DNA of 64,000 bases from IMG/VR virus record IMGVR_UViG_3300042473_001265, positions 124,001 to 188,000 of that record, one strand, 5' to 3'. The DNA comes from a virus. Positions 13,955 through 64,000 of the stretch are shown here, piece after piece (the stretch's first letter is position 1; every line of letters begins with the position of its first letter). The notes under the pieces were generated by a model, which saw only the letters and a list, made by a program, of their open reading frames with translations, was not told where the DNA came from and searched no databases. The translations under genes and the position numbers were made by a program.

Positions 13955-15054
13955 GGAGTTTTCCTTGATGAATAGTCATAGCCCGGGCGCATCATATCAA
14001 TTTGTTTTTGCTTGTAATCAGCGTCGGTCCAACAGTAATCAAATGTACTGACGACACCGTCTATTTCTATCTTGTATATATCCAAATGCGAACTCAGTAT
14101 ATCCCAAATAGCCTGATAATCAGTTGTGCCGAAACTTTGCTGTAACTGCACTTGTCCAATGGGCAGGTATCCTAAACTCAATGCTGAATCTTCGGGGTCG
14201 CGTCCATTGGCCTGCAACCACCGTTTAAATTCGTCTTGTTGATTGTTGTGCCACGGTTGATTGCCATTGTATACCACATCGTTGCCCCATTCTATGTCAA
14301 ACTCTCCGCTGTAGTATTTTAATTCTGTAATAGCTTCGCATACTGTTGCAGTAAGTTCCGGAGCATGTTCGTCACGAAACACTTCGAATAGTGTTTTGCC
14401 TATCTGTGCCCAGTGCATATAAACACCGCCCAACACACGGTCGTATCCGTTTGTTACAAAGCCCGATCTATGTGCAGGTTTTAGATTGTAACGAGCTGCT
14501 GCTAAGAATGTAGTAATTTGACTGGGGCGCAGCCAATAAGGCGTAGTGTTTGCTTTGCGCTGACTGAGAATCAGTGACTCCATTTCGTGACAGATATTGT
14601 TCAACTGTCTTATGGCATACTTGGTATCATAGTCGGCCCGTTGATAATAGTTGCTTAAATTGTTTACGGTACCTTGCAGCACTTCAAAGTGGTTGTGAAG
14701 CCTGTTCAACATGTCGTGGTTGACATGTTGTACAATTTTGTCAGGATTTTGTGACCATGGACCTGCTGTTGTAACCGTAGCAGGCGAGTATGTTTCTTTA
14801 ATTTTGTAGTCATCAAAGAAGTTGTTTACTACACTGGCCGCTTGGTTGACTTCGTTGCACAGGTAATCAAGTGTGCGAGCTGTTTTGGAAAATCCCATAA
14901 AACAAAAGTTTTTTTCCAACAGGTTGCCAGACTGTAGCAGTGTTTTGAGAGCAGGTATCCAATCTTGTGCCAATTCATTGTCTGCGGGCAGTATGGTATA
15001 GTCAACCTGATCGCTATGTTTCAACGGATTGCGTAGTACAATTTTAACAGTCAA
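13951..15054 (-). CDS. Unknown protein, 367 aa, within the radical SAM operon
   Basis: The frame opens after a TAA, and the only start before residue 50 is TTG at 15054, preceded by GGTGGA. The protein is soluble and mostly helical in the middle (QLNNICHEMESLILSQRK), with aromatic-rich segments and no Cys cluster. I recall uncharacterised relatives next to twitch radical SAM genes in marine phages. It overlaps the preceding radical SAM gene by 11 bases and the microprotein by ATGA, so it is firmly part of the operon. No catalytic motif was identified. Confidence 0.7.
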   Translation of the reverse strand: MTVKIVLRNPLKHSDQVDYTILPADNELAQDWIPALKTLLQSGNLLEKNFCFMGFSKTARTLDYLCNEVNQAASVVNNFFDDYKIKETYSPATVTTAGPWSQNPDKIVQHVNHDMLNRLHNHFEVLQGTVNNLSNYYQRADYDTKYAIRQLNNICHEMESLILSQRKANTTPYWLRPSQITTFLAAARYNLKPAHRSGFVTNGYDRVLGGVYMHWAQIGKTLFEVFRDEHAPELTATVCEAITELKYYSGEFDIEWGNDVVYNGNQPWHNNQQDEFKRWLQANGRDPEDSALSLGYLPIGQVQLQQSFGTTDYQAIWDILSSHLDIYKIEIDGVVSTFDYCWTDADYKQKQIDMMRPGYDYSSRKTP

Positions 15055-16336
15055 TTTGATTCCACCATGTTAACACATCAGGTCGGCTGGCCAGTATGTC
15101 GGCCATTGTAAATTTATCTTCACGAATTTGTTCTAGTTTTAACACACGCTGCTTGCCTCGAACAAGTCCTGCTTGCCAGGTGTCGGGCCATTGTTCTTCA
15201 AAGGTTGGGCGGGTTTTTAATTGTACCAGGATTGCTTGCACAGCTCCAGAACAAGAGGCTATCAATTCATCCAGCCACGGGTCAAGCAGGTGCCGCGGCA
15301 GAGCCAATGGGCTCATCACAATGTCAGGAGAAAACGCAAATACCACTTTTGCTAAGATATCGGTGTCTGTTTGTTGTGCAAGTTGCACAATGTTTTCAAT
15401 TTCAAACATTCCTGGCAAGGTGAGAGTAAAGTCGATTCTGACCTGGCGTCTGTGAGTTCTTGCTGCAACTGCTCTATCGTAATTTTTGCGCCAGCCAGCA
15501 TAGTCAAGGCCTGTTCTAATATATTCGCCAATGCGTTGTGTACCATCGAGACTCGCACAGATTTGCCAATCACGAAGGCCATGTAGAATCCCATCAAAGA
15601 GATCAATGCCACGATAATTAATTCTCGAAAGGTTAGTATTATATCTCGCATAGACTTTATGTCCATCTCCAAGTTCAACAATGCGTTTCATATAGCGCCA
15701 ATGTTGTTCGTACATCAAGGGTTCGCCACCAACCCAATACACTTCTTCAACGCGGTGTTCTTCAACTGCCTGCGCAAATTCTGCTTCGATTTGTTGATCT
15801 TGAAACTGAGAGATATCCTTTCTGACAGCAGGTTGCATCCAATTGTTCTTTGAATTGGACCAATCAATCATGTTGTGTTGGCGCTGTTCGCTTTCCCATG
15901 CACTGCTCAACATGTCACCGCATGTACGACATTTGAAATTGCACAGGTTACTGAATCTGTAGTCCCAACTCACTGGCAGCATGCTGGTGCTGCCGTCTGC
16001 ATCAGTGGTTTCCCAAATGCTATCATACTTATGTTTGAACATACTCCAGAAATAGCTGCGGTAAACATCGGTGTTTAGAAGTTTGCTGTTGCATACATCA
16101 CATTCTGGCAGTGTTTCTCCGGCCATCATACGGCGACGCACACTCCGCATGTGTTCACTGTTCCAGTGTTGATCCAGTGTGATGGGAGTATATTTGCCTG
16201 AGCCGGCGGCTGTGTCAATGTACTGTGTGAAACTTTGTGCAGGCTCACGGCTGGCACAGCACATTCTGCGTTCAGTTTGTGGACTCAGGTAGGTGTGAGT
16301 CCACGGCGCCATGCAAAGTGTTTCAGGCTTTGACAT
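15044..16336 (-). CDS. Twitch-type radical SAM protein (1 of 7)
   Basis: The radical SAM motif CxxxCxxC is CNFKCRTC (near residues 134-141), with the GGEP SAM-binding block in VYWVGGEPLMYE. The N-terminus has the auxiliary-cluster cysteine pattern of the twitch family: LCMAPW, RMCCASRE and ECDVCNSK. Such enzymes reduce SAM to a 5'-deoxyadenosyl radical; the N-terminal twitch domain is expected to hold a second Fe-S cluster. ATG at 16336 is preferred to TTG at 16342. It overlaps the upstream radical SAM gene by 14 bases. Substrate unknown. Confidence 0.9.
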   Translation of the reverse strand: MSKPETLCMAPWTHTYLSPQTERRMCCASREPAQSFTQYIDTAAGSGKYTPITLDQHWNSEHMRSVRRRMMAGETLPECDVCNSKLLNTDVYRSYFWSMFKHKYDSIWETTDADGSTSMLPVSWDYRFSNLCNFKCRTCGDMLSSAWESEQRQHNMIDWSNSKNNWMQPAVRKDISQFQDQQIEAEFAQAVEEHRVEEVYWVGGEPLMYEQHWRYMKRIVELGDGHKVYARYNTNLSRINYRGIDLFDGILHGLRDWQICASLDGTQRIGEYIRTGLDYAGWRKNYDRAVAARTHRRQVRIDFTLTLPGMFEIENIVQLAQQTDTDILAKVVFAFSPDIVMSPLALPRHLLDPWLDELIASCSGAVQAILVQLKTRPTFEEQWPDTWQAGLVRGKQRVLKLEQIREDKFTMADILASRPDVLTWWNQIDC

Positions 16337-17537
16337 AGTCAATCAATGCTGCAAACTCCGGCTCTACATCTGCTAGATTTTGTTGTCGTTTACGGTCAAG
16401 ATCAAGGATATTCATTCGTAGCAATTGTCCATCCAAACTGTTGCCACGATTCATAAATTCTGCGGCACTGACAAATTCTGACAGTATGTTAGCAGGAACA
16501 TCAGCCCGGGTCAATTGTTTTGTAATCGCTGTTTTGGCTGATTCAGGCAGGGTACTGATGCTGAAGTAATAGGCATCATGCATCATGTTCCAGTATATAA
16601 AATCAAACTTTTGCTGTATTAACCATTGGGCCACTGTTTCAAGATAATACACATTGAACACATTGATGGTACAACAGGCCTGCAATGTAATGTTGCTGTT
16701 GCGACTGCGTAGTTGTCTAAAGCGTTCTGTATTTGCAACCACATCGGCCCAGACGGCATTGCTGCGCTGATATTCGAATCGGTGTTCAACATCGTCAATG
16801 CTTAGTGCAATTTCAACATGTTTGAAATGTTTCCAAATTGCTTCGCCTTCTTCGGGGTACTGTGTGCCATTGGTGTTGTAGTGTATTTCAACTTGTGCAG
16901 CGCGACCTGTGTCTACTAATTTTTGTAACAGTTGGAAATGTTCCTTGATCATGAACGGTTCACCACCAGTGAACTCAATGTAACGAATGTTGTCTAGATG
17001 TTGATCTAGATCCGTCCAAAATTCAGCACTTTCTCTTGGCCAGGCACCGTCTTTCAACATCTGATAAGCAAAGCTACTGCGAGTTTCTTCTGCACGATTG
17101 AACCGAATTTCTTCTGCTGCAAACTGGCTGCTGCTCCAAGATCCACATATGCGGCATTTTAGATTGCAAATGTTGCCCAGTTTGAGATCAAGAAACATCA
17201 AGGGCATTGCATCTGCTGTCCACGACACATTGGAATCGAGCAGGTGTTTGAGTCTGTCTAGTGTATGCATGCGCTTGCTGGTACGCCCGGCTCGCTCTTC
17301 ATTCCAGCAGCGGCGACAGTTTTGTGGTTTTTTGCCAGCAAGAAAATCTTCGCGCAGCGTTCGCATTGCTCGGCTATTTTGTATTTCCGTCAAGCTGGTG
17401 TTGGCCAACTTGTATTTGTTGCCGTCGTTGTCTTCAATCTCGTCAATGGCCAAACAACAAGGTCGTACTGTTCCCACTGGACTTGCTTCCAAGCTGATCC
17501 AAGGTAGTACACAAAAAGTATCATGGGGTATGTTCAT
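16323..17537 (-). CDS. Twitch-type radical SAM protein (2 of 7)
   Basis: Radical SAM motif CNLKCRIC in GNICNLKCRICGSW and FTGGEPFMIKEHF for SAM binding. Auxiliary cysteines sit in TFCVLPWISLEASP, TVRPCCLAID and NCRRCWNEERAG. The 404 residues match the other twitch enzymes here in length and order. The start overlaps the upstream stop by ATGA. The substrate-binding half after GGEP (HYNTNGTQYP, LSIDDVEHRFEY) is closest to the enzyme at 57645, suggesting those two are a subgroup. Reaction unknown. Confidence 0.9.
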   Translation of the reverse strand: MNIPHDTFCVLPWISLEASPVGTVRPCCLAIDEIEDNDGNKYKLANTSLTEIQNSRAMRTLREDFLAGKKPQNCRRCWNEERAGRTSKRMHTLDRLKHLLDSNVSWTADAMPLMFLDLKLGNICNLKCRICGSWSSSQFAAEEIRFNRAEETRSSFAYQMLKDGAWPRESAEFWTDLDQHLDNIRYIEFTGGEPFMIKEHFQLLQKLVDTGRAAQVEIHYNTNGTQYPEEGEAIWKHFKHVEIALSIDDVEHRFEYQRSNAVWADVVANTERFRQLRSRNSNITLQACCTINVFNVYYLETVAQWLIQQKFDFIYWNMMHDAYYFSISTLPESAKTAITKQLTRADVPANILSEFVSAAEFMNRGNSLDGQLLRMNILDLDRKRQQNLADVEPEFAALIDYVKA

Positions 17538-18853
17538 TTGATAGGAATCCTGGTATCAGGCCGACGAAATTCTATAATGGATTCAAGTTCTGGTACTACA
17601 CCAAGCAATGATTCACTGCGAGACCAATCCAGATCATTTACTGAATCCCAAAAATCTTTCAACAAGTGTGAATTGTCTGTGGCCATCATAAATGCTATGG
17701 CGCCTTCAAATCCGCCCACAGCTCGTTGTATCTGATCAATAGGACGCAGATATTCAATGTGTTCTTCAAACTGCTGTTTAAATTTTAATTTAAGGTGCAT
17801 CGGCAACATGTCTATACGATAATCCTGCGGCCCTTGTAAAATATTCAGATTGAAGTCTTGTGCTTTGATGAACCCAGAATCGATCATGTAACGGTGGAAT
17901 TTAACAAAGTTCCATATGTTCATCATACTCAGTGTGGGACTGATCATAAAATCTATATGCGGGCACTCGCGTTTTAGATCCCGTATATTTTGTTCTACCT
18001 GGGCCCAATCAGTTCCAGATCGTATAACTTCGGCCCGCTCGGCCATGTCATCCAGGCTGGCGGCCACACACACATTGGGAAAATGTTTCCATAGTTCCAG
18101 CACTGATTCTTTTTTATATCGCAGGTCGTTTAGATTGGTATTGTAAATCAGCCGCACTTCGGTGTTGCCTTTTTCTATCAGCAATTTTAAGATGCGATTG
18201 TGTTCTTCCATGATCAATGGTTCGCCACCGGCAAAATAAATTTGTTCCAAATGCGGAATATGTTCTTGCATTTGCTCCCACACATCCTCCTCGTGCTGGC
18301 CTGCAAATTGCACTCGCGGTCGTAATGGTTTCCCCCACAGCTTAACATCGTCGTCGTACCAGCGACTGCTAAAAATACTGCCACAACTGCGACATTTGAG
18401 CTGACACATGTTGCTAAATCTCACATCCCAATAATGCAACCGCATGTCGGGCAAGCTACCATCTGGCAAAGTTTGATCTATTTCGTCGATGTAATGTCCA
18501 AAATTCTTATTGCTGTTATTTCTCATGCTGGCAAATCCAGCGCCTTCCTGTTCGTAACAGTCGCCACACTGTTTACAAGATTTATCCGCCAACATATTGC
18601 GCCGCATTTCACGCATGGGCTCGTCGTTCCATATTTCCCGCATGGTGTTTTCTTTGAGATTTCCCACTGGATGTTCGGCTTTGCCTAAACAGCAAGGATA
18701 TGCTCGACCGTCCGGCCATGCATGCAGATGTATCCAGGGAATCATGCAAAACACTTCCGACTCAATCAATTTATGCTGCTGATCCTTTGTTATATCTTCT
18801 AGTTTTATGTAGGATGGAATGCGGTCTTTCCAATTGTAGTTGCTAAGACTCAT
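17534..18853 (-). CDS. Twitch-type radical SAM protein (3 of 7)
   Basis: Radical SAM motif CQLKCRSC in SNMCQLKCRSCGSIFS, and YFAGGEPLIMEEH. Auxiliary cysteines: VFCMIPWIHLHAWPDG, YPCCLG and SCKQCGDC, which offers three cysteines where paralogues have two and may change cluster coordination. The start at 18853 (ATG, ATGA overlap with the upstream stop) was chosen over a further-upstream frame opening. A stretch of about 30 residues precedes the first Cys. Reaction unknown; it belongs to the same operon as paralogues 2, 4 and 5. Confidence 0.9.
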   Translation of the reverse strand: MSLSNYNWKDRIPSYIKLEDITKDQQHKLIESEVFCMIPWIHLHAWPDGRAYPCCLGKAEHPVGNLKENTMREIWNDEPMREMRRNMLADKSCKQCGDCYEQEGAGFASMRNNSNKNFGHYIDEIDQTLPDGSLPDMRLHYWDVRFSNMCQLKCRSCGSIFSSRWYDDDVKLWGKPLRPRVQFAGQHEEDVWEQMQEHIPHLEQIYFAGGEPLIMEEHNRILKLLIEKGNTEVRLIYNTNLNDLRYKKESVLELWKHFPNVCVAASLDDMAERAEVIRSGTDWAQVEQNIRDLKRECPHIDFMISPTLSMMNIWNFVKFHRYMIDSGFIKAQDFNLNILQGPQDYRIDMLPMHLKLKFKQQFEEHIEYLRPIDQIQRAVGGFEGAIAFMMATDNSHLLKDFWDSVNDLDWSRSESLLGVVPELESIIEFRRPDTRIPIK

Positions 18854-20187
18854 AATGATTGATACCATTCTTTTAGGTTAGGAAATGTGTTGCTAAAGTT
18901 TTTGTTCCTGCGCACATCATATTGATCAAAGAACTGGCGAAAGTCGTTGTGTAACTTGGGCATGTCAAATGTGTCGCTGTGTGGAGTTTTAACAATTTTC
19001 AAATAGTCAATCAATCTGCGAACATGATTCAGTTCAAATTCTTGACATGCTGATCTATTGTCAACTGATTCTTCCCACATGATCAAACAATTGCGAGCAG
19101 AGGACAACAAGGCAGGTGATAATACCAACGGAGATTGAAAACTTGGAAAGCGTAATATATTTAGTGTAAAATTAACTCGTTGTGTTCCGTAGGCTTTTTT
19201 TAATTTTATCAACTGTGTTAGGAATTCGGGCAATGTTTCTAAACACAATGCATTGATTGTACACATCACATGCACAGCACGAATATGATCGTGCTCCAAC
19301 AATTCTTGAACATTGTGCATCCATAGATCATAGTCCAAGCCGTCTCTTATGTATTCAGCAGCCGAGCCTGTTGCTTCGCAACTGGTGTATATCTCTAGGT
19401 GTGGGATATCTTGAACTCGTTCAATGAACTCCTGTAGCTTGATGCGATCCATGCCCAGATTTGAATTGATTGCTAGACGAGTTTGACTGCGACCTTGATT
19501 TGTTTTGAACCAGTCAATCAGCTTCCAGGTCTCACCGCTCATCAAGGGTTCGCCGCCGGTGATTCTCAGCTCTTGTAGTGTTCGGTGGAGGTCTGATTCC
19601 CACCAAGCAAAGAACGCTTCAACATATGGATTCGTCTCACCAAAGCGGTATAGTTGACTGCTATCGTGAGTGTGAGTAAAGTGGTTGCGCCCATCAGACA
19701 CCAAATTGGCATAGCCGCCGTGCTTTCGAATGTCATTGACCCATGTGCTACTGAAAGCAGGGTTACAATAGCTACAAGCAAATTGGCAAGTGCGGTCGAA
19801 CGCAATTTCAAGTGTGCGAAGATTGACGTCTTCATTGTACGGAGTTTGGTAAGCTTCATCAAGTGCCTTTATAGGGTAAATTTTACTTTTGTATACACGG
19901 TCGCTGACAGCATCAGTGGCCATGTCTTCGATCTTCCAGCAGTATTCACAACCGGCAGGGCGATCACCTGCCAGCATCTTCTTGCGATCATCTTTTTTCT
20001 TTGCTGTGTTATGCAGTGCAGCCGGATTGGTTTTTAGTTCTTCGAGATCAACAGCATGTGCTGGTGGATGATGACAACTGGTTGTTTGCCCGGAACCCAA
20101 CCATATAGTGGCATTGTACCATTTGGCTGCACAGAAACTAGCACTTTTGGTATCCAAGACCTGGTGCTTGAAATCTAGATCATTCAT
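18850..20187 (-). CDS. Twitch-type radical SAM protein, HPP subgroup (4 of 7)
   Basis: Radical SAM motif CQFACSYC followed by NPAFSSTW, and RITGGEPLMSGETW. The N-terminus differs from enzymes 1-3: CAAKWYNATIWLGSG, then SCHHPPAH, then NPAALHNT and CEYCWKIED. This pattern is shared closely with the protein at 21270-22694, so the two are duplicates within a separate subgroup. The extra His residues next to the Cys could supply or tune the auxiliary cluster. It overlaps the glycosyltransferase gene by 8 bases. Substrate unknown. Confidence 0.88.
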   Translation of the reverse strand: MNDLDFKHQVLDTKSASFCAAKWYNATIWLGSGQTTSCHHPPAHAVDLEELKTNPAALHNTAKKKDDRKKMLAGDRPAGCEYCWKIEDMATDAVSDRVYKSKIYPIKALDEAYQTPYNEDVNLRTLEIAFDRTCQFACSYCNPAFSSTWVNDIRKHGGYANLVSDGRNHFTHTHDSSQLYRFGETNPYVEAFFAWWESDLHRTLQELRITGGEPLMSGETWKLIDWFKTNQGRSQTRLAINSNLGMDRIKLQEFIERVQDIPHLEIYTSCEATGSAAEYIRDGLDYDLWMHNVQELLEHDHIRAVHVMCTINALCLETLPEFLTQLIKLKKAYGTQRVNFTLNILRFPSFQSPLVLSPALLSSARNCLIMWEESVDNRSACQEFELNHVRRLIDYLKIVKTPHSDTFDMPKLHNDFRQFFDQYDVRRNKNFSNTFPNLKEWYQSL

Positions 20188-21286
20188 TGAAATGTTTGTT
20201 TATAAATTGTTTAAAGCGGGCCGGAAATTCAGATCGAACTCGAGTTCGCATTTCCGCAAGATGTTGCTGGTTGTATTTACATACATTATAGCATTCTTTT
20301 AAGAAACTTGCAAGGTCTTGTTGACATAAATCTTTAACCACACGACTCACTTGCACCATTCTATCTTGATTGTTTGCTATTTCATCAAACCTCTCGTCAA
20401 TCACATGTCCGAATGTTTGAAATCCTAGATTATGCATATCTCTATAATATCCCTGATTGGCAACCGCAATCCATGGATGTCCAATTGCAATGGGTTTCCA
20501 TATTTTCTCTGTTCTAAAACTGTAGCGATAGTTTTGAACAGTTTCGGTCACCAAGCTAAAATAAGTATTGGTATACTGTGCCGGAACTAGATACACGTCT
20601 CCCCATATGTCAGACTCGAACAAATATTTTTTTACATTTTCATCAGTCTGAGATATGTCAACATTGAACCGATCAAGTTCGTATTGCCGATCGAGCAATT
20701 TCACCGGGCCATTGGCAGGATCTAAATTGCTCCATAATGCTGTATCAAGTACGTCGGCTAACTGTTCAATCATAAATTTTCTATGCTGTCTTCCTTTTCC
20801 GTTCAAAAATAAAAATTTATATGGTCGATTGGTTGAATAGGTGCGTTTATAAGTTTTTATAGCGTTGATATTTTCATCGTAGTCTAGTATTTTAGGAAGA
20901 AAATTTTCATATACAAGATGCAGATATTGTGCCGGAACATCGCCGCCGGTTAATAATAGTATTTTTCCTTTTTTGAGTAACTCAAGTAGATCAGTATTTT
21001 CATTTCCATTGGCCAGTTTAGTACGAAATTCTGGCCGGCCGCAACGATTTATTAAAGTTGCCGATCCTTCACTTGGTTCAGCATATATAGCTTTTATAGT
21101 ATTAGTTTTTACCAACTCTACAATTTTTTCAAAATTTTCTCCAAACTCAGCGTGACTTATCAAATATATAGCATTGGGAACCAAAGTGTGTTCTTGAAAA
21201 ATAGAAAATTTATCGTCGGCATACACAGCAAGTTCATCGTGTATTCCACATCCTGTGTCTATTATTAATTTACGATTGCCGAGCAT
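20180..21286 (-). CDS. Fucosyltransferase-like glycosyltransferase (paralogue 3)
   Basis: The C-terminal block FRTEKIWKPIAIGHPWIAVA followed by LGFQTFGHVIDERFDEI matches the TEK donor-site signature of the proteins at 7662 and 8779, so this is a third, more divergent relative. The N-terminal half is Asn/Ile-rich and unlike the other two. ATG at 21286 behind AAGGAATG is preferred to a GTG at 21313. It lies between two HPP-type radical SAM genes with overlaps on both sides. This stretch looks more A+T-rich than its neighbours, which may indicate separate acquisition. Confidence 0.7.
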   Translation of the reverse strand: MLGNRKLIIDTGCGIHDELAVYADDKFSIFQEHTLVPNAIYLISHAEFGENFEKIVELVKTNTIKAIYAEPSEGSATLINRCGRPEFRTKLANGNENTDLLELLKKGKILLLTGGDVPAQYLHLVYENFLPKILDYDENINAIKTYKRTYSTNRPYKFLFLNGKGRQHRKFMIEQLADVLDTALWSNLDPANGPVKLLDRQYELDRFNVDISQTDENVKKYLFESDIWGDVYLVPAQYTNTYFSLVTETVQNYRYSFRTEKIWKPIAIGHPWIAVANQGYYRDMHNLGFQTFGHVIDERFDEIANNQDRMVQVSRVVKDLCQQDLASFLKECYNVCKYNQQHLAEMRTRVRSEFPARFKQFINKHFNE

Positions 21287-22694
21287 GGTACTCACATTCC
21301 TTCCACCAGGCACTCATTTCTGGAAACACGCTCAAGAAGTCTGTACCGTGTCTGTGATCTGCTTCTGTAAAGAACCGATAGAAGTCAGCTTTATTTCGTT
21401 GCAGGTACGCAGAGTCTAATCGTTGTCCATCACGCATCCAGGCTATGTCGCGATCAAGACGAGATATTTCATAATCTTTGAAACCGTGCAATCTGGTTGC
21501 TTCTGTTTCGATACCGTGTTGCATTGATATTTTTAATTTTTCCAACTGTGCTGCATAGCTTTCTGGCAACAATTGTAAACTTTGCCAAGCGGGTTGTCGC
21601 AGCACTGGAGTATCAAACCACACACGCTGATATGTGCTGCTGTGTTTTTTTCTAAGTTCTATAATGCCATCTAACAGCTCGGGTAAACTTGTCACACTTA
21701 GGTTATTCATTGTCACAATAAATGTCACACTGTTGCGCGAAGGAACTTCGGTTAAGAACTGATTTACTCTGCTCCACACCAAATCAAAATTCATGCCATG
21801 GCGCATGTACTCGGCCTGACGGCCCCATCCGTCTAGACTGATGTATTGCATAAAGTGCTCAACCACTCCTTCTTGGCACAATTGTTTGGTGTAGGCCAAA
21901 TAGCGTTGCCAACTTTTTTCATCCACACTGAAGTTGCTGGTTACATTGAGATGCAGATTAGATTTGGGATTGGCCAGCACATAGTCAAACACACGATAGG
22001 TATTCCGATCCAGCAATGGTTCGCCGCCGGTCATTCTGAAGTGCTCCAACTCGGGATACAAGGTGGGCCACCACTGCCAAAACGCTTCCACATAGGGATT
22101 GTGCTCACGAACAGGAATGGATTTACGGTCACCTGCAAAGTGCTCAGGCGCATTGTGCGGGATGGATGTAGGATAAGCACCGTGCCGATCAGTTTCTTGT
22201 TGCCAGGTGCTGCTGAACTGTGGGCTACAATAGCTGCAAGCAAGGTTACAAGCGTTGTTGAAATTTACTTCAACATAACTGGGAGTAATGTCAGCGTCCC
22301 ACTCTGCATTCACAATGGTGCCAAAGTCTTTGGCAGCCCACGGTTCTCCTGATCTGTAATGTCGGTCACTGAGTTTGCCATTGTCTTCCATTGTCCAACA
22401 GTAGCTGCATTCAGCAGGACGTGTGCCCTCTAGCATTTGTTTACGCTGTTGTTTTTTATAATCAGTGTTGTGTAATGCAGCAGGATTGCGACCAATGGCA
22501 TCTACAGGAATACGATGCAAGGGCGGGTGGTAACAACTGTTGTTAAGGCCAGTGGTCAGGTGTAGACTGACTTGTTTCCATTTGGCCAGACACATGCTGG
22601 GACTAACAGTATCTAACTGTTGTTTGATTAGTTCGGCATCACTTAAAAACTTTGATTTAAAGTCTTCGTTGACTTCGTCACCTTTGTTTTGCAT
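21270..22694 (-). CDS. Twitch-type radical SAM protein, HPP subgroup (5 of 7)
   Basis: Radical SAM motif CNLACSYC in NNACNLACSYCSPQFS and FRMTGGEPLLDRNTY. N-terminal pattern MCLAKWKQVSLHL, SCYHPPLH, NPAALHNT and CSYCWTMED, nearly identical in layout to the enzyme at 18850-20187. At 474 residues it is the longest of the operon set, with about 34 residues before the first Cys. The conserved NPYVEAFW/F-x-WW block in both proteins after the radical SAM motif is probably substrate-binding. TGA and the next ATG are adjacent. Confidence 0.88.
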   Translation of the reverse strand: MQNKGDEVNEDFKSKFLSDAELIKQQLDTVSPSMCLAKWKQVSLHLTTGLNNSCYHPPLHRIPVDAIGRNPAALHNTDYKKQQRKQMLEGTRPAECSYCWTMEDNGKLSDRHYRSGEPWAAKDFGTIVNAEWDADITPSYVEVNFNNACNLACSYCSPQFSSTWQQETDRHGAYPTSIPHNAPEHFAGDRKSIPVREHNPYVEAFWQWWPTLYPELEHFRMTGGEPLLDRNTYRVFDYVLANPKSNLHLNVTSNFSVDEKSWQRYLAYTKQLCQEGVVEHFMQYISLDGWGRQAEYMRHGMNFDLVWSRVNQFLTEVPSRNSVTFIVTMNNLSVTSLPELLDGIIELRKKHSSTYQRVWFDTPVLRQPAWQSLQLLPESYAAQLEKLKISMQHGIETEATRLHGFKDYEISRLDRDIAWMRDGQRLDSAYLQRNKADFYRFFTEADHRHGTDFLSVFPEMSAWWKECEYHARQS

Positions 22695-23621
22695 TCACCA
22701 ACCTTCTTGACTACGAATAACATCAATCTCTCTCACAGCGACACCGCGATTGTGCCAGTTACTGCGATAATGATGTTTAAAGAATTTACTAGCAGACTCA
22801 TCAATCCATACCATTGGTAAATCCAACTGCGTAGTCAATTCGTTTGCTACTCGGCTCAACACCACTTCCGGGTCAGTGTCTTTTACTGTGTCCCACAGTT
22901 GTTCCAGCGCAGCAAAATCTTGTACTGCGCGATGGTCCCAGTTGGTCAGCATGGTCATGTATGAACCCATGCGCGATCCAGCCATACTCCAAATGCCGTG
23001 TTCAGCATCGCGACCCACATTGTGCCATATGGTCAAGTTGTCGAGATTGCGTTGATGCACACGATTTTGAAACTCTGCCACTGTGGGTTTCTTACCTGTG
23101 TTCAAACACATTTTGACCCCTTCGCGAAACCCGGCACGCCATGCGTGAAAAGCTGAACCATTGGGATATGTGGTTGAATAGCAATCATGCATGGCCCAGT
23201 ACAACGGATCAAAGCAAAACTCCACTTCGGTTGCTGCACGACCGTCGGTGGCTTCGTGTGTTCGCATATCGTTGACAAACTTTCTAGTCCACGAACTCAG
23301 CCCGCCGTTGCCATACATCAATCCGTTTATGTGATTACGGGCACGCCAGCGGAACACTGCGGATTCCCATTGTGCATCAGGCAACTCCAGTGTCTGGTTA
23401 AAAAATTCAGGGTCTGGCATGTTGTCGCCGTCGATCAACACAAAGCGTTCGGTATCACTGGCCGCAGCAGCAGCTTTGTGTGCTGCATCACTGCCCCGAA
23501 CACCATCCACTCGCTTGGCCCAAGGAACCATATTGCGAATCTTTATCCAGAATTCTTCTTTTTGTGGTTCATCATAAGTTAGATAAATGCAGTCAAGGTC
23601 TGCGATGTCAATCCGATTCAT
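22695..23621 (-). CDS. GT-A-like glycosyltransferase-type protein, 308 aa
   Basis: It begins DLDCIYLTYDEPQ, followed by RVDGVRGSDAAHKAAAAA and FVLIDGDNMPDPEF. The last resembles the DxD metal/nucleotide-sugar motif of GT-A glycosyltransferases (DGDN). NHINGLMYGNGGLSSWTRKF follows. The same succession of blocks appears in the C-terminal domain of the 606-residue protein at 5843, so the two share a domain. Role inferred: sugar transfer or glycan modification. It overlaps the preceding gene by 14 bases. Confidence 0.72.
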   Translation of the reverse strand: MNRIDIADLDCIYLTYDEPQKEEFWIKIRNMVPWAKRVDGVRGSDAAHKAAAAASDTERFVLIDGDNMPDPEFFNQTLELPDAQWESAVFRWRARNHINGLMYGNGGLSSWTRKFVNDMRTHEATDGRAATEVEFCFDPLYWAMHDCYSTTYPNGSAFHAWRAGFREGVKMCLNTGKKPTVAEFQNRVHQRNLDNLTIWHNVGRDAEHGIWSMAGSRMGSYMTMLTNWDHRAVQDFAALEQLWDTVKDTDPEVVLSRVANELTTQLDLPMVWIDESASKFFKHHYRSNWHNRGVAVREIDVIRSQEGW

Positions 23622-24003: not shown

Positions 24004-24229
24004 CTTGATCAAATCGTTTCACTTGCACAGGGTCAATACCCAGTACTTTGGCGTAGGAGCACAACAAACATTTGGGATTGCCACAATCCATGGCATGCTG
24101 TTTTGCAAACTTGTGTGGTTGACTGACATCCGATCCTTTGGATTTTGCAATCCGGGTCTGCTTCTTTACAGCGTTTTCATCTTTGAGCAGTCGTTTGCTG
24201 TGTTTGATTTTGTCTTGTTCAGTACTCAT
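23948..24229 (-). CDS. Small Cys-rich basic protein, 93 aa
   Basis: ATG at 24229 lies behind GGAGATTGAC and overlaps the upstream stop by ATGA. The protein is Lys-rich at the N-terminus and contains HAMDCGNPKCLLCSYAKV, three cysteines in a CxxxxCxxC spacing that could bind zinc or iron. Short proteins with a 'CGNPKC-x2-C' core are common, uncharacterised phage proteins. The overlap with 23608-24003 is about 56 bases and shares no frame. Confidence 0.72.
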   Translation of the reverse strand: MSTEQDKIKHSKRLLKDENAVKKQTRIAKSKGSDVSQPHKFAKQHAMDCGNPKCLLCSYAKVLGIDPVQVKRFDQDVDTAAHKHSNGLAPDRE

Positions 24230-24969
24230 GTCAATCTCCAGTCTTTCATATGATAATGCACAAATCCCCACTGTGCTATGGTGTTTATACGCACACCCGG
24301 ATTGGTATTTTCCCATACCAATTCTTTGGTCCAGTCGTTAGTGTGGGTGGCAACAATGCCTGGTTTCATATGCACCATAGTGGGTCCATATCCCAGGGGC
24401 AAGGTCACTTGTTCTCTGCCTGTGATTTCTACTGCCATTGCATAAACAACATCAGTTGACGGAACTTCTTCGGGAAATTTCAACAGTGTTTTAAAGTTGT
24501 CCCAGTTTTCAAAAATACTCCTGACCAATTGAAAAAAGTCCTGTGCTGTTTTACTTACACGCCAATATGTAATAGCATTATAAACATCAGGCAACTTGTT
24601 CACATCAAACAATTTTCTGTAACGACGATTGCTACCAGGTTGATCGTAAAAGTCTCTACATCCCTGACTGATCACAACATCACGATGTTCAAACATGGTC
24701 CACCAGTGATTCACTGGACTGGCTGCAATCATATCTGCTTCCAGTTTGATAGTTTGCCTGTAAGGGCTGGCAGCAAACACTTGCCAGTCGTTGGCAAAGC
24801 CACCGCGATCGCCGTAGGGCAACATTTCTTTTGTCAATACAGTTATGTTGGCATCAGGATGCCATGCTCGTATGCTGTCGGCCAACTGGTTGGCGCAGGC
24901 CACATAGTCCACTGTGTCTGTGTTTACAGCTGGGATTAGGTATCCGCGCTCAGCAAGGATTTTCAACAA
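24226..24969 (-). CDS. GT-A-fold glycosyltransferase-like protein, 247 aa
   Basis: It opens with DTVDYVACANQLADSIRAW and NITVLTKEMLP, then TIKLEADMIAASP, where EAD takes the place of the usual DxD. This is the layout of GT8-like retaining glycosyltransferases and is shared with the next protein (24950-25753). Both have a later block of aromatic residues and a HMKPG- or HAMGK-type C-terminal segment. The loss of the first Asp of DxD may alter metal use. It overlaps both neighbours (ATGA downstream, 20 bases upstream). Confidence 0.72.
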   Translation of the reverse strand: MLKILAERGYLIPAVNTDTVDYVACANQLADSIRAWHPDANITVLTKEMLPYGDRGGFANDWQVFAASPYRQTIKLEADMIAASPVNHWWTMFEHRDVVISQGCRDFYDQPGSNRRYRKLFDVNKLPDVYNAITYWRVSKTAQDFFQLVRSIFENWDNFKTLLKFPEEVPSTDVVYAMAVEITGREQVTLPLGYGPTMVHMKPGIVATHTNDWTKELVWENTNPGVRINTIAQWGFVHYHMKDWRLT

Positions 24970-25753
24970 TTGCTCCTAGCTGTTGTTTGCCCATGGCATG
25001 AAAGTCCTGACTTATAGTAACCCATCGTGCTTTGTTGTCAATTGTTTTAAAGTCTATTCTGTATAGATCCGGTGATAACTGTGTCAATCGGTGTTCTGGT
25101 GTAACGCTGACCAGTGAACCCGGGATTGAGTTGACTTTCAATGTGTGTCCGTTTAGAGTATTTAACGCAATGCTCAGTGCATGGTCGTTTCTGTAGGTGG
25201 CTGTGTTATTTTTGTATAGATTTCTATAGTGTGTCCAGTTGTCTCTGACCATTTGCATTGAATCAAACAACAATTCAACCGACTTGCTGCGATTGAACAT
25301 CATCACAGTGGCCCACCACATGGGCATGCGATGACTGCCAAAGTAATTTAGATCATCAAATGTTCTAACACCTGTGGCATCGGCGGCCCATCTATGGCAT
25401 AAAAATTCTTGATGGCTTTGTAGTATAGTAGCAAGTTGATCACTGGCCACAACATAATCGGCGTCCAATACCAATGTTTGATCCCATGGACTAAGACGAT
25501 AAGCGTCCATACGGTTGGTGTTGTGCCACGCAACAGGTTCGCCAATGTCAGCAAAGTGTCGTACACCACTGCCTGCTGGATGGTCAACCAACACAACACG
25601 ATCAAAACTGTGGCCAACGAGTGGTTCTTTGTCTGTAACTAAACAAACAGGAATTTTTAAATGGCGGTGTATGTTGGCAGCAGACCAATTGGCCATGGCA
25701 ACATAATCAATATGCTTGTTGTTAAACGCAAATATTAGTGCGCCAGTGGTCAT
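24950..25753 (-). CDS. GT-A-fold glycosyltransferase-like protein, 267 aa
   Basis: KHIDYVAMANWSAANIHRHL and VCLVTDKEPLVGHSF begin the domain, with LVLDADYVVASDQL containing the intact DxD motif expected to bind the metal and nucleotide-sugar donor. It is paralogous to the protein at 24226. ATG at 25753 overlaps the upstream stop (ATGA); the frame extends further but without reason to use it. The two genes probably form a pair acting on related acceptors. Acceptor and sugar unknown. Confidence 0.75.
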   Translation of the reverse strand: MTTGALIFAFNNKHIDYVAMANWSAANIHRHLKIPVCLVTDKEPLVGHSFDRVVLVDHPAGSGVRHFADIGEPVAWHNTNRMDAYRLSPWDQTLVLDADYVVASDQLATILQSHQEFLCHRWAADATGVRTFDDLNYFGSHRMPMWWATVMMFNRSKSVELLFDSMQMVRDNWTHYRNLYKNNTATYRNDHALSIALNTLNGHTLKVNSIPGSLVSVTPEHRLTQLSPDLYRIDFKTIDNKARWVTISQDFHAMGKQQLGAIVENPC

Positions 25754-26058
25754 CGTTTTTTGTTTAATTCTTCGTATTCGACCAACCATGCTGTCATTTG
25801 TTCTTGCCAGCGACCCAGTGCTAGATACTGTAGTTCTGCGGGATTAATCTGCACTGGTGTTTCGTACAGGTCTAAAATTACCACTGCATCTTGTACTGGA
25901 ATTGCTTGCAACAGTGTCAGCAGTTCAGGGCCAGCACACCACATGCCACCATTGTAGGCAAACAACATTTTGGCGGCATATTTTTCTTTGAGCAGACGGC
26001 GGGCGGCCACATGCTCAAAACGAGTGCGACCAGTTTCGATCAATTGTTCAGTATTCAT
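25750..26058 (-). CDS. Conserved small phage protein, first gene of the operon, 102 aa
   Basis: The helical, charged protein (RRLLKEKYAAKMLFAYNGGM, LDLYETPVQINPAELQYLA, WQEQMTAWLVEYEELNKKR) resembles hypothetical proteins I recall from T4-like cyanophages. No Shine-Dalgarno is visible before ATG 26058, and the predicted transcription start falls at or next to the ATG, so the mRNA may be leaderless. As first gene it would be the most strongly transcribed of the 17. Function unknown. Confidence 0.72.
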   Translation of the reverse strand: MNTEQLIETGRTRFEHVAARRLLKEKYAAKMLFAYNGGMWCAGPELLTLLQAIPVQDAVVILDLYETPVQINPAELQYLALGRWQEQMTAWLVEYEELNKKR

Positions 26059-26065: not shown

Positions 26066-26094
26066 ATTATACAGCATACACAGACAAAAGTAAA
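26066..26094 (-). promoter_or_regulatory. Sigma70-type promoter of the 15-kb operon
   Basis: On the minus strand, TTTACT (26094-26089), a 17-base spacer and a perfect TATAAT (26071-26066). It is the only promoter-like sequence between the virion module and the operon. Its -35 box overlaps the T-rich tail of the terminator at 26086-26111. The expected start site (about 26059) abuts the first ATG at 26058. Confidence 0.65.
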
Positions 26095-27126: not shown

Positions 27127-27201
27127 TTTTGTTTCCCTTTGTATTAGTTGATCAATTTCAACGCAATCTTCGATTGCTGGGTGATATTAACCTGTGTTAT
27201 T

Positions 27202-56641: not shown

Positions 56642-57658
56642 GTGGCAACAAAACGCACTATATCCAACTTGGATTCTACCAAATCAATATCATCAACTCC
56701 GATAGCGCCAAAAGTAAATTATCTCAACAACAGAGACATTTTAAAAGAGATTCACGCCAGCAAAAACACCTACTGCTACTATGTCAATCCTGATGCGGAC
56801 AGTCAATACGACATTATTTTGCCCAGCCTGGACAAAATCAATCAGCGTACCATTGCCGAAGCACGCCGAAATCGTGCTGACCGTCTCAAACGACTGGGCA
56901 CTATAGTTGACCCTGTGAAAATCCCCAACACTGATTTGGTGTTCCGTATCAGCTGCTGGGATCATATCCCAATGGCAGAGAAAAAAATTCCCAAATCAGA
57001 ACAAAAGAAAAAACAAAAACTGGAAGACCTACTGCAATTTGAAGACGAGCCCATTGATGATTCACTAGACGAGCTGCTGGATGATGTGCTGTTGAATCCG
57101 GTTCGGCAGCGACTGAACTTTCCTCCATTTGAGCATTGGCGCCTGGATAATAACAAAGAAAAATACCTTGTTGGCCGTAGTCATTGGAAAGGCAATCTTG
57201 AAACCGGAGAATTTTCCAAGGATCACGGCGACATGACACGCAAACTTGCACACATGTTTATGAAGCTGTGTGAACGCTATGCCACCAGATCAAACTGGCG
57301 CGGCTACACCTACAACGAAGAAATGCGCGGCCAGGCCCTGTTGCAACTGAGTCAAATTGGACTACAGTTTGACGAAAGCAAAAGTCAAAATCCATTTGCC
57401 TACTACACTGCTGCCATTACCAACAGCTTTACTCGCATCTTGAATTTGGAAAAGAAAAGTCAAAACATTCGTGATGACATTTTGGAAATCAACGGGCTAA
57501 GTCCGTCGTGGACAAGACAAAATGCCGGCCGGCCCAGTATGGCTCAGCTGAGTGGTCCTGTTACCATCACCACTTACATTGTGGATCGACCAGTGGCGGA
57601 GCCTGCGGGTATCAATATTGATGTTGAAGAATACAATAAAGACAATGCTACCAACTGA
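56642..57658 (+). CDS. 55: Late-transcription sigma factor, gp55-like
   Basis: Residues about 195-285 carry a sigma70 region 2-like segment (KLAHMFMKLCERYATRSNWR, TYNEEMRGQALLQLSQIG, FDESKSQNPFAYYTAAITNS, FTRILNLEKKSQNIRDDIL) recognisable as T4 gp55-type. In T4, gp55 binds host core RNA polymerase and directs it, with gp33 and the sliding clamp, to TATAAATA promoters; such boxes occur upstream of virion genes here. At 338 residues it is far longer than T4 gp55 (185): about 190 residues precede the sigma part, including KKIPKSEQKKKQKLEDLLQF and an acidic stretch. GTG start behind GAGGAGA. Gene order gp55, gp47, gp46 is as in T4-like cyanophages. Confidence 0.85.
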   Translation: MATKRTISNLDSTKSISSTPIAPKVNYLNNRDILKEIHASKNTYCYYVNPDADSQYDIILPSLDKINQRTIAEARRNRADRLKRLGTIVDPVKIPNTDLVFRISCWDHIPMAEKKIPKSEQKKKQKLEDLLQFEDEPIDDSLDELLDDVLLNPVRQRLNFPPFEHWRLDNNKEKYLVGRSHWKGNLETGEFSKDHGDMTRKLAHMFMKLCERYATRSNWRGYTYNEEMRGQALLQLSQIGLQFDESKSQNPFAYYTAAITNSFTRILNLEKKSQNIRDDILEINGLSPSWTRQNAGRPSMAQLSGPVTITTYIVDRPVAEPAGINIDVEEYNKDNATN

Positions 57659-59135
57659 GTTGTACCAACAATTGCAAAAAACATACAAGGTTGTATGTTT
57701 TGTAGACATGGCTGATATTTCCAAGTCGCCTGGCGCTATTTTTAAATTGTTTACAGACCATTACAAGTCTGAATACAAAGAAAATGAACGATTGGTTTTT
57801 TACACCAACGAAGATCCTGGAATCAAGTTACTTGAGCATATTCAACAGGCAGCAATGATAATTGATATTAGCCATTGTTTTATATTAATTTGTTGCCCTG
57901 TAGATTTAACTGATCGTATGGGGTTGACCGATACTACAATGCAACAGATTGTAATTGAGTGTGACTCTGTACCACTTGACAATGGATTTGTTGTGCCCGA
58001 TACCATGTGTGTTTTTCCGTTTAAACATCTTGAAATTAACCATCAAGGTGCCGTTAAACCTTGTTGTTTGTATAAAACTACAGTAGGACAAGTTCCGGAT
58101 CAATCAATTAACGAAATTTTTTATTCTGAAAAAATGGAAAAATTACGCAATGATTTTTTAAACGGTATTAAATCTAGTGATTGCTCCCATTGTTGGAATC
58201 TTGAAGACATCGGACTTACAAGTTCTAGGCAAGCAAGTTTACTTCTGGATAGACAACAATTGTATACCACATGGCTTTCTAAGCCTGGTGTGTATAGTTT
58301 GGATTTAAAGCCTGGCAATGTGTGCAATTTTAAATGCAGAATTTGTAATGCACAATCAAGTTCGTTGTATGCTGGCGAACAACTAGCAAAATCAACTAAT
58401 CCTGAATCTAAATTACAAATACAAAAATTCATTGATGGCAGTCGTTGGTTTGAAAATAGTGAAAAATTTATTCAAGAATTTGAAGAGTTGCTGTGCCAGA
58501 TAGAAAATCTTGATTTTTATGGTGGTGAGCCTTTTTTATTAAAGAATTTAAACACTTTGCTCAGCAAGGCTGTTGAAATGGAACGAGCACAGAACATCAG
58601 GTTACATTTTAATACCAATGGATCTGTATTTCCAGCTCATCTAATAGACACGTTTAAAAAATTTAAACATATTGACTTGGCTATTAGCGTTGACTGTGTT
58701 GGACCAAGATTTGAATACGAACGCGGCGGTTCTTGGCAAGAAATTGAAGAGAATATTAAAAAACTGAGTCGACTGGTTGACGACCAGTTTAGTGTTTACT
58801 TGTTTACTACTGTAAATATTCAAAATGTTTTATATTTAGATGAGTTGTACTCTTGGGCAGAATCAACTGGGTTGAGGGTAGTCTTAAATGTTTTAAAAGG
58901 ACCTCAATTTATGAATATTGACTATATGACTCAAGCAGCAAAGGATTTGGTAATTGAAAAATTTCAAAACAGTAGCATTCCAGAACTTCAAAGCATTGCC
59001 AATCGTGTCAAAAAAAGCCCAGGTAGCAATGGAGAGAAGTTTATAGAGTATATGCAACAACTCGACAAATGGAGAAATGAAAACTTTGGGTTGACGCACA
59101 AAGAGATTGCAAATGCTATGGGATACATGTTATAA
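57645..59135 (+). CDS. Twitch-type radical SAM protein with N-terminal extension (6 of 7)
   Basis: Radical SAM motif CNFKCRIC in GNVCNFKCRICNAQSS and FYGGEPFLLKN. Auxiliary cysteines: TMCVFPFKHLEINHQG, AVKPCCLYKT and DCSHCWNLED. About 110 residues precede the first Cys and form an extra domain (TYKVVCFVDMADISKSPGAI, NERLVFYTNEDPGIKLLEHI, CFILICCPVD) that the operon paralogues lack. It may bind a partner or substrate. ATG 57645 overlaps the gp55 stop by 14 bases, so this enzyme is co-expressed with gp55 and gp47, not with the 15-kb operon. Substrate unknown. The sequence looks more A+T-rich than gp55. Confidence 0.9.
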   Translation: MLPTELYQQLQKTYKVVCFVDMADISKSPGAIFKLFTDHYKSEYKENERLVFYTNEDPGIKLLEHIQQAAMIIDISHCFILICCPVDLTDRMGLTDTTMQQIVIECDSVPLDNGFVVPDTMCVFPFKHLEINHQGAVKPCCLYKTTVGQVPDQSINEIFYSEKMEKLRNDFLNGIKSSDCSHCWNLEDIGLTSSRQASLLLDRQQLYTTWLSKPGVYSLDLKPGNVCNFKCRICNAQSSSLYAGEQLAKSTNPESKLQIQKFIDGSRWFENSEKFIQEFEELLCQIENLDFYGGEPFLLKNLNTLLSKAVEMERAQNIRLHFNTNGSVFPAHLIDTFKKFKHIDLAISVDCVGPRFEYERGGSWQEIEENIKKLSRLVDDQFSVYLFTTVNIQNVLYLDELYSWAESTGLRVVLNVLKGPQFMNIDYMTQAAKDLVIEKFQNSSIPELQSIANRVKKSPGSNGEKFIEYMQQLDKWRNENFGLTHKEIANAMGYML

Positions 59136-62617: not shown

Positions 62618-63572
62618 CTATAAAACAGTACATCTTGAAATCAGTAGCAAATGCGTACTCAAATGTCCGCGCTGCCCTAGGACTGAGTTGAAGTTGGACC
62701 GATTAAATCAAGAAATAACACTGAGCGACTTCAAGTCTGGATTTCCAGTGGATGTGCTGAGTCATATTGAACATTTTATATTTTGTGGTGACATTGGTGA
62801 TCCAATATATGCTACAGAGTTTTTAGAAATTATACAATACATCAAACAACACAGCAAGATTCGTGTACGCATTGTGACCAATGGCAGTTACAAAAAACCC
62901 GAATGGTGGCAACAGTTGGGTGCAATATTAACCGGTAACGATCAGATCACATTCAGTGTTGATGGATGGGACAACCAGTCAAACAATCAATATCGTGTCA
63001 ACAGCGATTTTGAAAGTATTGTATCAGGTATCACTGCGCTGAGAGCATCAAGCAGTTGCGTAATACAATGGTCTGCAATTTATTTTGCGTTTAATCAAGA
63101 CAAAATCAATGACATGCGTGATTTTGCAAAATCTTTAGGGTGCAACCAATTTCAAACTGTTAAAAGTTCAAAGTTTGATAATAGATACCTGGCCGACGGT
63201 ATAGACGAATTAAAGCCTGCCACAGAGTTTGTTGCAAGTACTTTGGTATACGAAACTAGTACAGAATTGTTAAATCAAACTGATTATATACCAATTGTAC
63301 CCAGAACCTCTGAACGGCCACATGCCTGGGCCAAATGTTTAAATTATAAAAAAGATTTGTTTGTTGGAATCAACGGACTAGTAATGCCGTGTCCTTGGTT
63401 CAACAACGGTTACAATGATAACGAGTTTATAAAAAAAAATCATACTCTCATGTCTATCAAAACTCGGCCATTTTTAGAAATAATAAATGATGTCGGTCTA
63501 TGGCAAAAATTACTAGATAGTTTTGATACATCGCCTTTGGAAATTTGTCAATTAAAGTGTAAAAATGGATAA
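62604..63572 (+). CDS. Radical SAM protein with SPASM-like C-terminus, 322 aa
   Basis: Radical SAM motif CVLKCPRC in SSKCVLKCPRCPRTELK comes at residues 17-24, immediately after the start, unlike the twitch enzymes. C-terminal cysteines in WAKCLNYKKD, VMPCPWFN and CQLKCKNG form a SPASM-type auxiliary cluster site. The start is a TTG at 62604 (or 62610); no ATG lies upstream of the motif. It overlaps gp46 by 14 bases and the next gene by 8. SPASM enzymes often modify peptides; here substrate unknown. Confidence 0.85.
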   Translation: MNLFNYKTVHLEISSKCVLKCPRCPRTELKLDRLNQEITLSDFKSGFPVDVLSHIEHFIFCGDIGDPIYATEFLEIIQYIKQHSKIRVRIVTNGSYKKPEWWQQLGAILTGNDQITFSVDGWDNQSNNQYRVNSDFESIVSGITALRASSSCVIQWSAIYFAFNQDKINDMRDFAKSLGCNQFQTVKSSKFDNRYLADGIDELKPATEFVASTLVYETSTELLNQTDYIPIVPRTSERPHAWAKCLNYKKDLFVGINGLVMPCPWFNNGYNDNEFIKKNHTLMSIKTRPFLEIINDVGLWQKLLDSFDTSPLEICQLKCKNG

Positions 63573-64000
63573 TAAAAAAATATTTTGTACAGTACCTTGG
63601 TTTGAAGTTCATGTTAATGCTGACGGAACCTACCATACCTGCGGGGCACAGCCGACACCCAGCAGCATGCCGATGCTGTCGGGATTTACAGAAAAAAATA
63701 ATGTACATTCGATGCATATACAGGACTGGGTCAATGGTGAATACCAAAAAAGAGTCAGACTAGATAAACTCAATGGAGTTTACGAAAAAAGATGTTTGAT
63801 GTGTTATTCAGAAGAGGCCACTGGATCGTCTAGTAAAAGAATTAAAGAAAATTTAAAAAGCAAAATCTACGATGTCAAGTTTGATTTAACTTATAAACAC
63901 AGTCCAGATTTAGCAACCTTTGAGTTTTCAAGGCAAAATCAAGGACTGACTGATATTGTTAAGCCAATCAGCTATCACTTGAATCTTGGTAACGAATGCA
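63565..64000 (+). CDS. Twitch-type radical SAM protein, 3' cut by window edge (7 of 7)
   Basis: ATG 63565 overlaps the previous stop. The start IFCTVPWFEVHVNADGTYHT, followed by CGAQP and CLMCYSEEATGSSSKR, is the N-terminal twitch domain. The window ends in LNLGNEC, which aligns with the first Cys of the radical SAM motif in the paralogues (LKPGNVC, LKLGNIC). The remaining roughly 250 residues lie beyond the window. Confidence 0.85.
   Translation, partial: MDNKKIFCTVPWFEVHVNADGTYHTCGAQPTPSSMPMLSGFTEKNNVHSMHIQDWVNGEYQKRVRLDKLNGVYEKRCLMCYSEEATGSSSKRIKENLKSKIYDVKFDLTYKHSPDLATFEFSRQNQGLTDIVKPISYHLNLGNEC

Follow-up and report, generated by a model that had tools for sequence, protein, structure and literature searches.

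Results

An ordered row of five twitch rSAM genes behind phage tail genes

The window analysed here is a stretch of 64,000 nucleotides, corresponding to bases 124001-188000 of the 340,172-base IMG/VR virus record IMGVR_UViG_3300042473_001265; positions refer to the window unless the record is named, and genes are called by their first coordinate. A run of minus-strand genes extends from 26058 down to 10997. It holds an ordered row of five genes for twitch-type radical S-adenosylmethionine (SAM) enzymes, hereafter rSAM (15044, 16323, 17534, 18850 and 21270), together with a gene for a protein of predicted GT-A fold (22695) and an O-carbamoyltransferase gene (12342), all located behind tail genes in a large, uncultured lineage of jumbo phages (Table 1). 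The genes from 22695 through 13951 overlap or abut, with gaps of -44 to 0 bp.

The first-pass annotation of this DNA had listed eight rSAM genes at two loci, and all eight open reading frames (ORFs) are found where it had placed them, although the gene that it called 57645, which is indeed an rSAM gene, has its longest frame starting at 57552. Seven had been taken for twitch enzymes, in agreement with the NCBIfam model NF033640 (N_Twi_rSAM, twitch domain-containing radical SAM; curated cut-off 170 bits), which seven of the eight pass when the gene at the window edge, 63565, is scored whole. That this gene would have a twitch N-terminus only was an effect of the edge, as the whole gene carries CNYACKMC and GGEP. 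The remaining gene, 62604, had been set apart as a SPASM-like type, and its scores agree. The reported motifs also hold: all 11 full NF033640 proteins of the record that were aligned have CxxxCxxC, GGEP and the cysteine sites of the twitch. Fe-S binding and SAM cleavage of the rSAM proteins are predictions from motifs and fold. The count of eight is correct for the window but too low for the genome, since the 340-kb record has PF04055 matches at 15 places and NF033640 matches at 13 (10 above the cut-off); the window's eight genes are thus a fraction of the set of this virus. In each of seven related virus records, NF033640 matches at 9 to 14 places.

Table 1. Genes and sites of the rSAM operon, its flanks and the second locus (window coordinates)
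Feature	Coordinates	Strand	Evidence and occurrence
Twitch rSAM, type 15044	15044..16342	-	NF033640 279 bits; orthologue in 71/80 viral loci
Twitch rSAM, type 16323	16323..17537	-	NF033640 346 bits; orthologue in 62/80 loci
Twitch rSAM, type 17534	17534..18868	-	NF033640 401 bits; orthologue in 78/80 loci (search seed)
Twitch rSAM, type 18850	18850..20187	-	NF033640 303 bits; orthologue in 77/80 loci
Twitch rSAM, type 21270	21270..22694	-	NF033640 322 bits; orthologue in 75/80 loci; sister type of 18850 (tree)
Predicted GT-A-fold glycosyltransferase with invariant D-G-D-N	22695..23621	-	Predicted structure; in 56/56 tail-seeded loci
NodU/TobZ/GdmN-type O-carbamoyltransferase	12342..13856	-	PF16861 E 2e-46, PF02543 E 9e-34; PDB matches GdmN, TobZ; 46/48 loci reaching far enough
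Conserved protein of unknown function	13951..15054	-	68/80 loci; 45/48 loci reaching far enough
Variable protein between rSAM genes	20180..21313	-	18/80 loci at orthologue thresholds; no family match
Glycosyltransferase-like protein (by eye)	24226..24969	-	65/80 loci; no Pfam match; PHROG of unknown function
Glycosyltransferase-like protein (by eye)	24950..25789	-	67 homologues over 80 loci, 19/80 at the stricter orthologue thresholds; no family match
Small gene opening the operon	25750..26058	-	65 homologues in 80 loci
Operon boundary	26066..26111	-	Terminator-like hairpin 26111-26092, then promoter-like TTTACT-17-TATAAT 26094-26066
Tail/virion-like proteins 26134, 27202, 28508	26134..29128	-	Directly upstream of the module; 27202 and 28508 match structural or unknown phage PHROGs
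Amidinotransferase-family protein	9965..10984	+	PDB arginine:glycine amidinotransferase E 7e-14, inosamine-phosphate amidinotransferase E 5e-11; 13/48 loci
Twitch rSAM, second locus, inside the 16323 lineage	57552..59135	+	NF033640 292 bits; larger quick tree, long branch 1.35
SPASM-type rSAM, not NF033640	62604..63572	+	PF04055 E 1.2e-7, C-terminal SPASM match; NF033640 33.8 bits
Twitch rSAM cut at the window edge	63565..64000	+	Whole gene at record 187565-188836; NF033640 66.5 bits cut, 243.8 bits whole

The module is conserved as a unit

To each seed gene belong its best 80 loci; among those of 17534, orthologues were counted at ≥35% identity and ≥70% coverage away from contig edges. The loci are not independent, as near-identical contigs are included (L029/L030/L059 and L043/L045/L047, for instance) and contigs recur across seeds. 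In the 80 viral loci obtained with 17534, the module genes that were found stand in one order and on one strand without exception, CxxxCxxC and GGEP are kept in every counted rSAM orthologue, and an orthologue of 22695 is present in 74. A homologue of 27202 or 26134 lies upstream of the module in 59 of 70 of these loci. Because the 17534 seed is biased, the search was repeated from the tail gene 28508. Fifty-six of its 80 loci reach 7 kb downstream, and these hold 22695 in every case, the 21270 type in 48 and any twitch rSAM gene in 53; among the three that have none, two contigs end too early and one holds an insertion. With 22695 as seed, all 58 usable loci (of 80) have the tail genes upstream, as a homologue of 26134, 27202 or 28508, while the 21270 type is found in 57 and at least three twitch genes in 51. 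The carbamoyltransferase seed likewise left 58 usable loci of 80, of which 52 hold a twitch gene and 44 the 15044 type. The predicted glycosyltransferase 22695 is tightly tied to the module.

Median identity to the window is 47-72% for the five rSAM types and 65% for 22695, compared with 46% for 27202 and 38% for 26134. Purifying selection acts on all five rSAM types: median omega, the ratio of nonsynonymous to synonymous divergence (dN/dS), is 0.13 for 15044, 0.03 for 16323, 0.04 for 17534, 0.12 for 18850 and 0.10 for 21270, based on the 20, 3, 10, 11 and 9 pairs, respectively, that were kept when the 40 closest of 110 candidate pairs were filtered to a pS of 0.1-0.65. In summary, order and strand, selection and motifs all bear out the view of the five operon enzymes as a unit.

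Between tail gene 26134 and the operon lie a terminator-like hairpin and a promoter-like TATAAT site. Of 49 distinct gaps of this kind in relatives, 14 have TATAAT no more than 25 nt from the start (mean 1.45 and maximum 5 in 500 single-base shuffles), and 30 have a hairpin of at least 8 pairs (about 10% in shuffles). The T4 late promoter TATAAATA was found 0 times in the window against 1.9 expected, which is uninformative. On the far side of the tail genes, directly before the adhesin-like ones, an ORF of 4815 aa spans 29279-43726, with 51-59% identity in the three relatives checked.

Each type has its own bacterial relatives

The careful tree, which has 59 rows, places the phage sequences of each operon type in a separate clade whose sisters or near neighbours are bacterial rows; 18850 and 21270 group together. 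The bacterial sisters come mostly from Bdellovibrionota. A star marks the base of four phage clades, and the fifth, that of 15044, has support 92/84; in the quick tree of 98 rows, the bacterial row of 15044 sits inside phage-like rows. The 59 rows were what remained of the 98 after removal of, among others, both Vibrio phages, the far copies of the record, win_57552, L053_6368, L072_7327 and L053_7495, and the label "Bdellovibrionota_etc" of the larger tree includes L133, from the class of genome G004. The phage label needs five changes on the careful tree and a single change in 0% of 200 bootstrap trees, and on this basis a single phage-born expansion of the five types is rejected. The assumption that the paralogues had diverged within the phage is not supported, and we take it from the unrooted tree that the five types are old and present in more than one kind of genome. 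As a result that would refute its reading, the first-pass annotation had named a tree in which every copy is nearest to a bacterial gene that is unrelated and has a separate, known function. Only half of this is borne out: most types do have bacterial nearest kin, but several of these lie in one cluster, and no function is known for any of them in what was searched.

In cultured phages, represented by 50,697 phage records and searched with three of the five rSAM types and 22695, the operon was not detected at the sensitivity of that search. The 17534 query retrieved 17 records at about 22-25% identity, all but one from Vibrio phages; 15044 and 21270 retrieved the two Vibrio phages K566 and K567, and 22695 matched no record. 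The cultured NF033640 relatives (K566, K567 and the KVP40 group) lack this operon as far as seen.

Matches on contigs labelled as bacterial include Oligoflexia, Bacteriovoracaceae, an Elusimicrobia bin and, weakly, a planctomycete, besides a short contig labelled Flavobacterium (L104). Four more (L100-L103), from metagenome-assembled genomes of Verrucomicrobia, Betaproteobacteria, Pelagibacter and Rickettsiales, carry phage tail genes as well as the module and are probably misbinned phage contigs. The Elusimicrobia bin (L107-L118) has 62 twitch rSAM matches, many of them tandem TPR-twitch-rSAM fusions of 635-1128 aa. In the phylum of the Bacteriovoracaceae genome, which we take to be Bdellovibrionota, NF033640 is over the cut-off in 40 of 144 genomes. 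In a class-wide search of genome G004, this was the case in 2 of 274, one being G004 itself, whose contig looks like a phage.

Two Bdellovibrionota clusters contain several of the operon types. Within about 9 kb, genome G021 has a gene of 15044 type (46% identical), two of 18850 type (47-51%), a 21270-like gene (36%) and a SPASM-type rSAM gene, and G140 has 18850-type, 17534-type (40%) and 21270-like genes within 6 kb. These are the same enzyme types as in the phage, up to 51% identical, but in a different order and with no phage tail genes. In G021 the neighbours encode a GT2 glycosyltransferase, a MobA-like nucleotidyltransferase, a choline-kinase-like APH protein and GDSL proteins. The 22695 family occurs in 10 of the 144 genomes, nine with strong matches (E 7e-20 or better). 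All nine fall among the 40 twitch-positive genomes (hypergeometric 4.8e-6, an optimistic value because the genomes are related), and in seven of the nine a 22695 homologue lies within 5 kb of a twitch gene, as judged by eye among the matches listed.

Predicted structures and families of the operon proteins

The AlphaFold model of 17534 (predicted local distance difference test score, pLDDT, 91.5) matches rSAM-fold structures, the nearest being BlsE, anSME, SkfB, DesII, MoaA and viperin, all within about 1.3 Z. A family profile search led to BtrN for the twitch domain and to viperin for the core. BtrN acts on aminocyclitols and DesII on nucleotide sugars. A single-sequence search for solved homologues of 17534 and 22695 found none, and no listed NCBIfam equivalog model for the maturases of ribosomally synthesised and post-translationally modified peptides (RiPPs) reached its cut-off with these rSAM proteins.

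For 22695, the model (pLDDT 88.6) predicts a GT-A fold: its PDB matches are nearly all GT-A glycosyltransferases or nucleotidyltransferases, albeit with moderate Z only (best 8.2, cellulose synthase), and a DxD-type motif, D64-G-D66-N67, is unchanged in 26 of 26 alignment rows. A 606-aa protein at 5843-7663 contains a part (record 130005-130535) that matches the 22695 profile with 58 bits, and similar second matches occur in 7 of 8 virus records. Both Pfam domains of O-carbamoyltransferases of the NodU/TobZ kind were found in 12342. The protein 9965 has arginine:glycine amidinotransferase (AGAT), StrB1 and SxtG as kin; it matches no Pfam model at cut-off and no NCBIfam model, and is conserved at 80-88% in the related loci that have it. 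Genes for a DegT aminotransferase and a nucleotide-sugar epimerase/dehydratase lie farther from the operon than 9965; among the 48 loci with at least 9.5 kb downstream, the former is found in two and the latter in none, where the flank may stop short of them. At the operon end, 10997-11785 encodes an S11 D-alanyl-D-alanine carboxypeptidase with no homologue in these 48 loci. PHROGs were uninformative for most operon proteins.

The second locus and the wider rSAM and Fe-S equipment

The three rSAM genes of the second locus had been described as interleaved with gp55, gp47 and gp46. We confirm an SbcD/gp47-like gene (59144) and an SbcC/gp46-like gene (60854), but the supposed gp55 (60147) has no PHROGs or Pfam match. 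Of the genes outside the operon, 57552 alone seems to have branched off from one of the phage operon types, namely 16323, and its branch is long. A gene similar to 62604 is found at record 99581-100603, and such genes adjoin twitch genes in Bdellovibrionota.

A row of genes at record 283382-285714 (L012:17382-19714) encodes IscU (NifU_N), an IscA-type carrier and a B12-binding rSAM protein, and a second A-type carrier is found at record 23702-24025, about 1.3 kb past a twitch rSAM gene. A-type carriers occur in 5 of the 8 virus records searched. From IscU, the two carriers and the B12-binding rSAM protein, it follows that Fe-S supply belongs to the equipment of this phage, and these proteins could serve its many rSAM enzymes. 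Record 91481-92356 (L005:11481-12356) holds an rSAM gene that is QueE-like by sequence (PF04055 only), suggesting 7-deazaguanine chemistry apart from the operon.

Discussion

The best, if tentative, explanation for these observations (we put its probability at roughly 0.42) is that the operon is a conserved, tail-linked module for making or tailoring a sugar-based decoration, most likely fixed to the neighbouring tail adhesins. In such a scheme, glycosyltransferases would build a sugar chain, the rSAM enzymes would rework it by successive hydrogen-abstraction steps (dehydrogenation, epimerisation, rearrangement or cross-linking) and the carbamoyltransferase would cap it, whereupon the finished glycan would most likely be attached to the tail adhesins and might shield them or tune their receptor binding. 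This reading is supported by the kept gene order, the linkage to tail genes from either seed, the purifying selection, the kinship of the carbamoyltransferase with GdmN and TobZ, the BtrN match of the twitch domain, the predicted GT-A fold of 22695, its co-occurrence with twitch genes in bacteria, the bacterial neighbours and the IscU and IscA-type genes of the record, and the tail adhesins appear as the likeliest acceptor because the linkage to the tail genes is fixed. BtrN, TobZ and StrB1 are enzymes of aminoglycoside pathways and distant kin of the twitch domain, the O-carbamoyltransferase and the amidinotransferase described here; unlike in that toolkit, however, we see no aminocyclitol core pathway, and the amidinotransferase is present in 13 of 48 loci only. 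The suggestion of the first-pass annotation that the rSAM enzymes act successively on one product has gained support. The kept order and strand, the purifying selection, the motifs and the co-clustering of about three types in bacteria make joint action plausible, while the nature of the product is our inference.

Several points weigh against a tail-borne glycan. The structures matched by 17534 do not discriminate between substrates, as BlsE, anSME, SkfB, DesII, MoaA and viperin fit about equally well and the substrates among them are sugars, peptides and nucleotides; peptides are the substrate of many SPASM/twitch enzymes. The Elusimicrobia kin of the 17534 type carry TPR domains, which often bind protein. 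Bdellovibrionota have the enzyme types without these tail genes, so that a tail is unnecessary for the chemistry. The label of 24226 and 24950 as glycosyltransferases comes from inspection by eye alone, and neither a product nor an acceptor nor a glycan on virions has been observed. A more specific version of the proposal, namely that phage tails are coated with a radical-tailored, carbamoylated sugar polymer, also amidinated in some members, which is made by a block of five enzymes of types shared with predatory Bdellovibrionota, we consider quite doubtful.

The glycan chemistry might instead be aimed at the host, with lipopolysaccharide or another surface polymer being rebuilt during infection and competing phages thereby excluded. 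We regard this as a serious alternative, albeit a doubtful one. It would fit the Bdellovibrionota chromosomes, which hold the same enzyme types amid polysaccharide-like genes, and the promoter-like site that the operon has of its own, separate from the tail genes; O-chain modification has moreover been proposed for the glycosyltransferases of pelagimyophages in a similar genomic position, according to the available part of that report (PMC7029224). The tight linkage to tail genes would not be required for such a role, however, and the family searches made recognised no membrane transport, flippase or polymerase gene in the operon.

It is unlikely that the rSAM enzymes modify the polypeptides of the tail adhesins directly, by cross-links, D-residues or other changes as in RiPPs, with the glycosyltransferases acting on the same proteins. 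The tail genes do adjoin, the structures nearest to 17534 include the peptide maturase SkfB, a sactipeptide thioether-forming enzyme and anSME, and the TPR fusions of the Elusimicrobia kin would suit a protein substrate. On the other hand, RiPP-maturase equivalogs are missing at cut-off, within the overlapping rSAM block, to which this observation is confined, there is hardly any room for the gene of a precursor, and these tail adhesins are missing from the bacterial clusters.

That the rSAM genes are unrelated auxiliary genes which chance has brought loosely together at a tail-fibre hot spot is very improbable. The non-operon copies are scattered over the record and distant from each other in the tree, and for these scattered copies the idea may hold. 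For the operon it is contradicted by the single order of the five types in 80 of 80 loci, by their co-clustering in bacteria and by core identities mostly above those of the tail genes. Least probable of all is that the enzymes supply phage DNA with a hypermodified nucleotide: glycosylated DNA is known from phages and the record has its QueE-like rSAM gene, but that gene lies elsewhere, the operon adjoins tail genes rather than nucleotide metabolism, and in bacteria the enzyme types adjoin polysaccharide-like genes.

rSAM genes in marine phages have been described before. As far as the available part of the account goes, pelagimyophages carry rSAM cassettes and many glycosyltransferases in a hypervariable tail-fibre region, for which modification of the host O-chain is proposed, and freshwater members are without rSAM genes (PMC7029224). 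The likeness lies in the presence of rSAM and glycosyltransferase genes in the tail-fibre region of myophages; the rSAM genes of two near pelagimyophage genomes differ, however, whereas here five fixed types keep a fixed order across a large lineage, colinear in all 80 loci (PMC7029224, same part). The T4-like marine virus TARA_ERS488813_N000010, reported in 2017 with 12 rSAM genes, an A-type carrier, cas4, grx and paaD, similarly combines many rSAM and Fe-S assembly genes in one virus, but the portion of that account available to us gives no operon, types, glycosyltransferase link or function (PMC5332604). In viromes from the Tasman Sea, rSAM and glycosyltransferase genes are listed as prominent, at least in the part of the report at hand (PMC7150976). 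Moraphages were considered as the same lineage and set aside, the word "radical" being absent from the available text (PMC12619734). A literature search in which most hits were judged by title and abstract opening returned no conserved five-enzyme rSAM operon of phages, no tie to one GT-A family, no enzyme types common to phages and Bdellovibrionota, and no example of virion chemistry made by radical enzymes. A conserved five-type block common to phages and bacteria thus looks new.

For a virus, radical enzymes that are sensitive to oxygen come at a considerable cost. Even so, the lineage described here has retained five types in a fixed order and carries about ten or more members of the family per genome, with Fe-S assembly genes in several records. 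Seven of the eight rSAM genes in the window belong to NF033640, whose model name gives no function. If tails or host surfaces are decorated as proposed, this would offer functions for a family that is frequent in Bdellovibrionota (40/144 genomes) and has none assigned in the sources searched, and it would add a new layer to the recognition between phages and their hosts.

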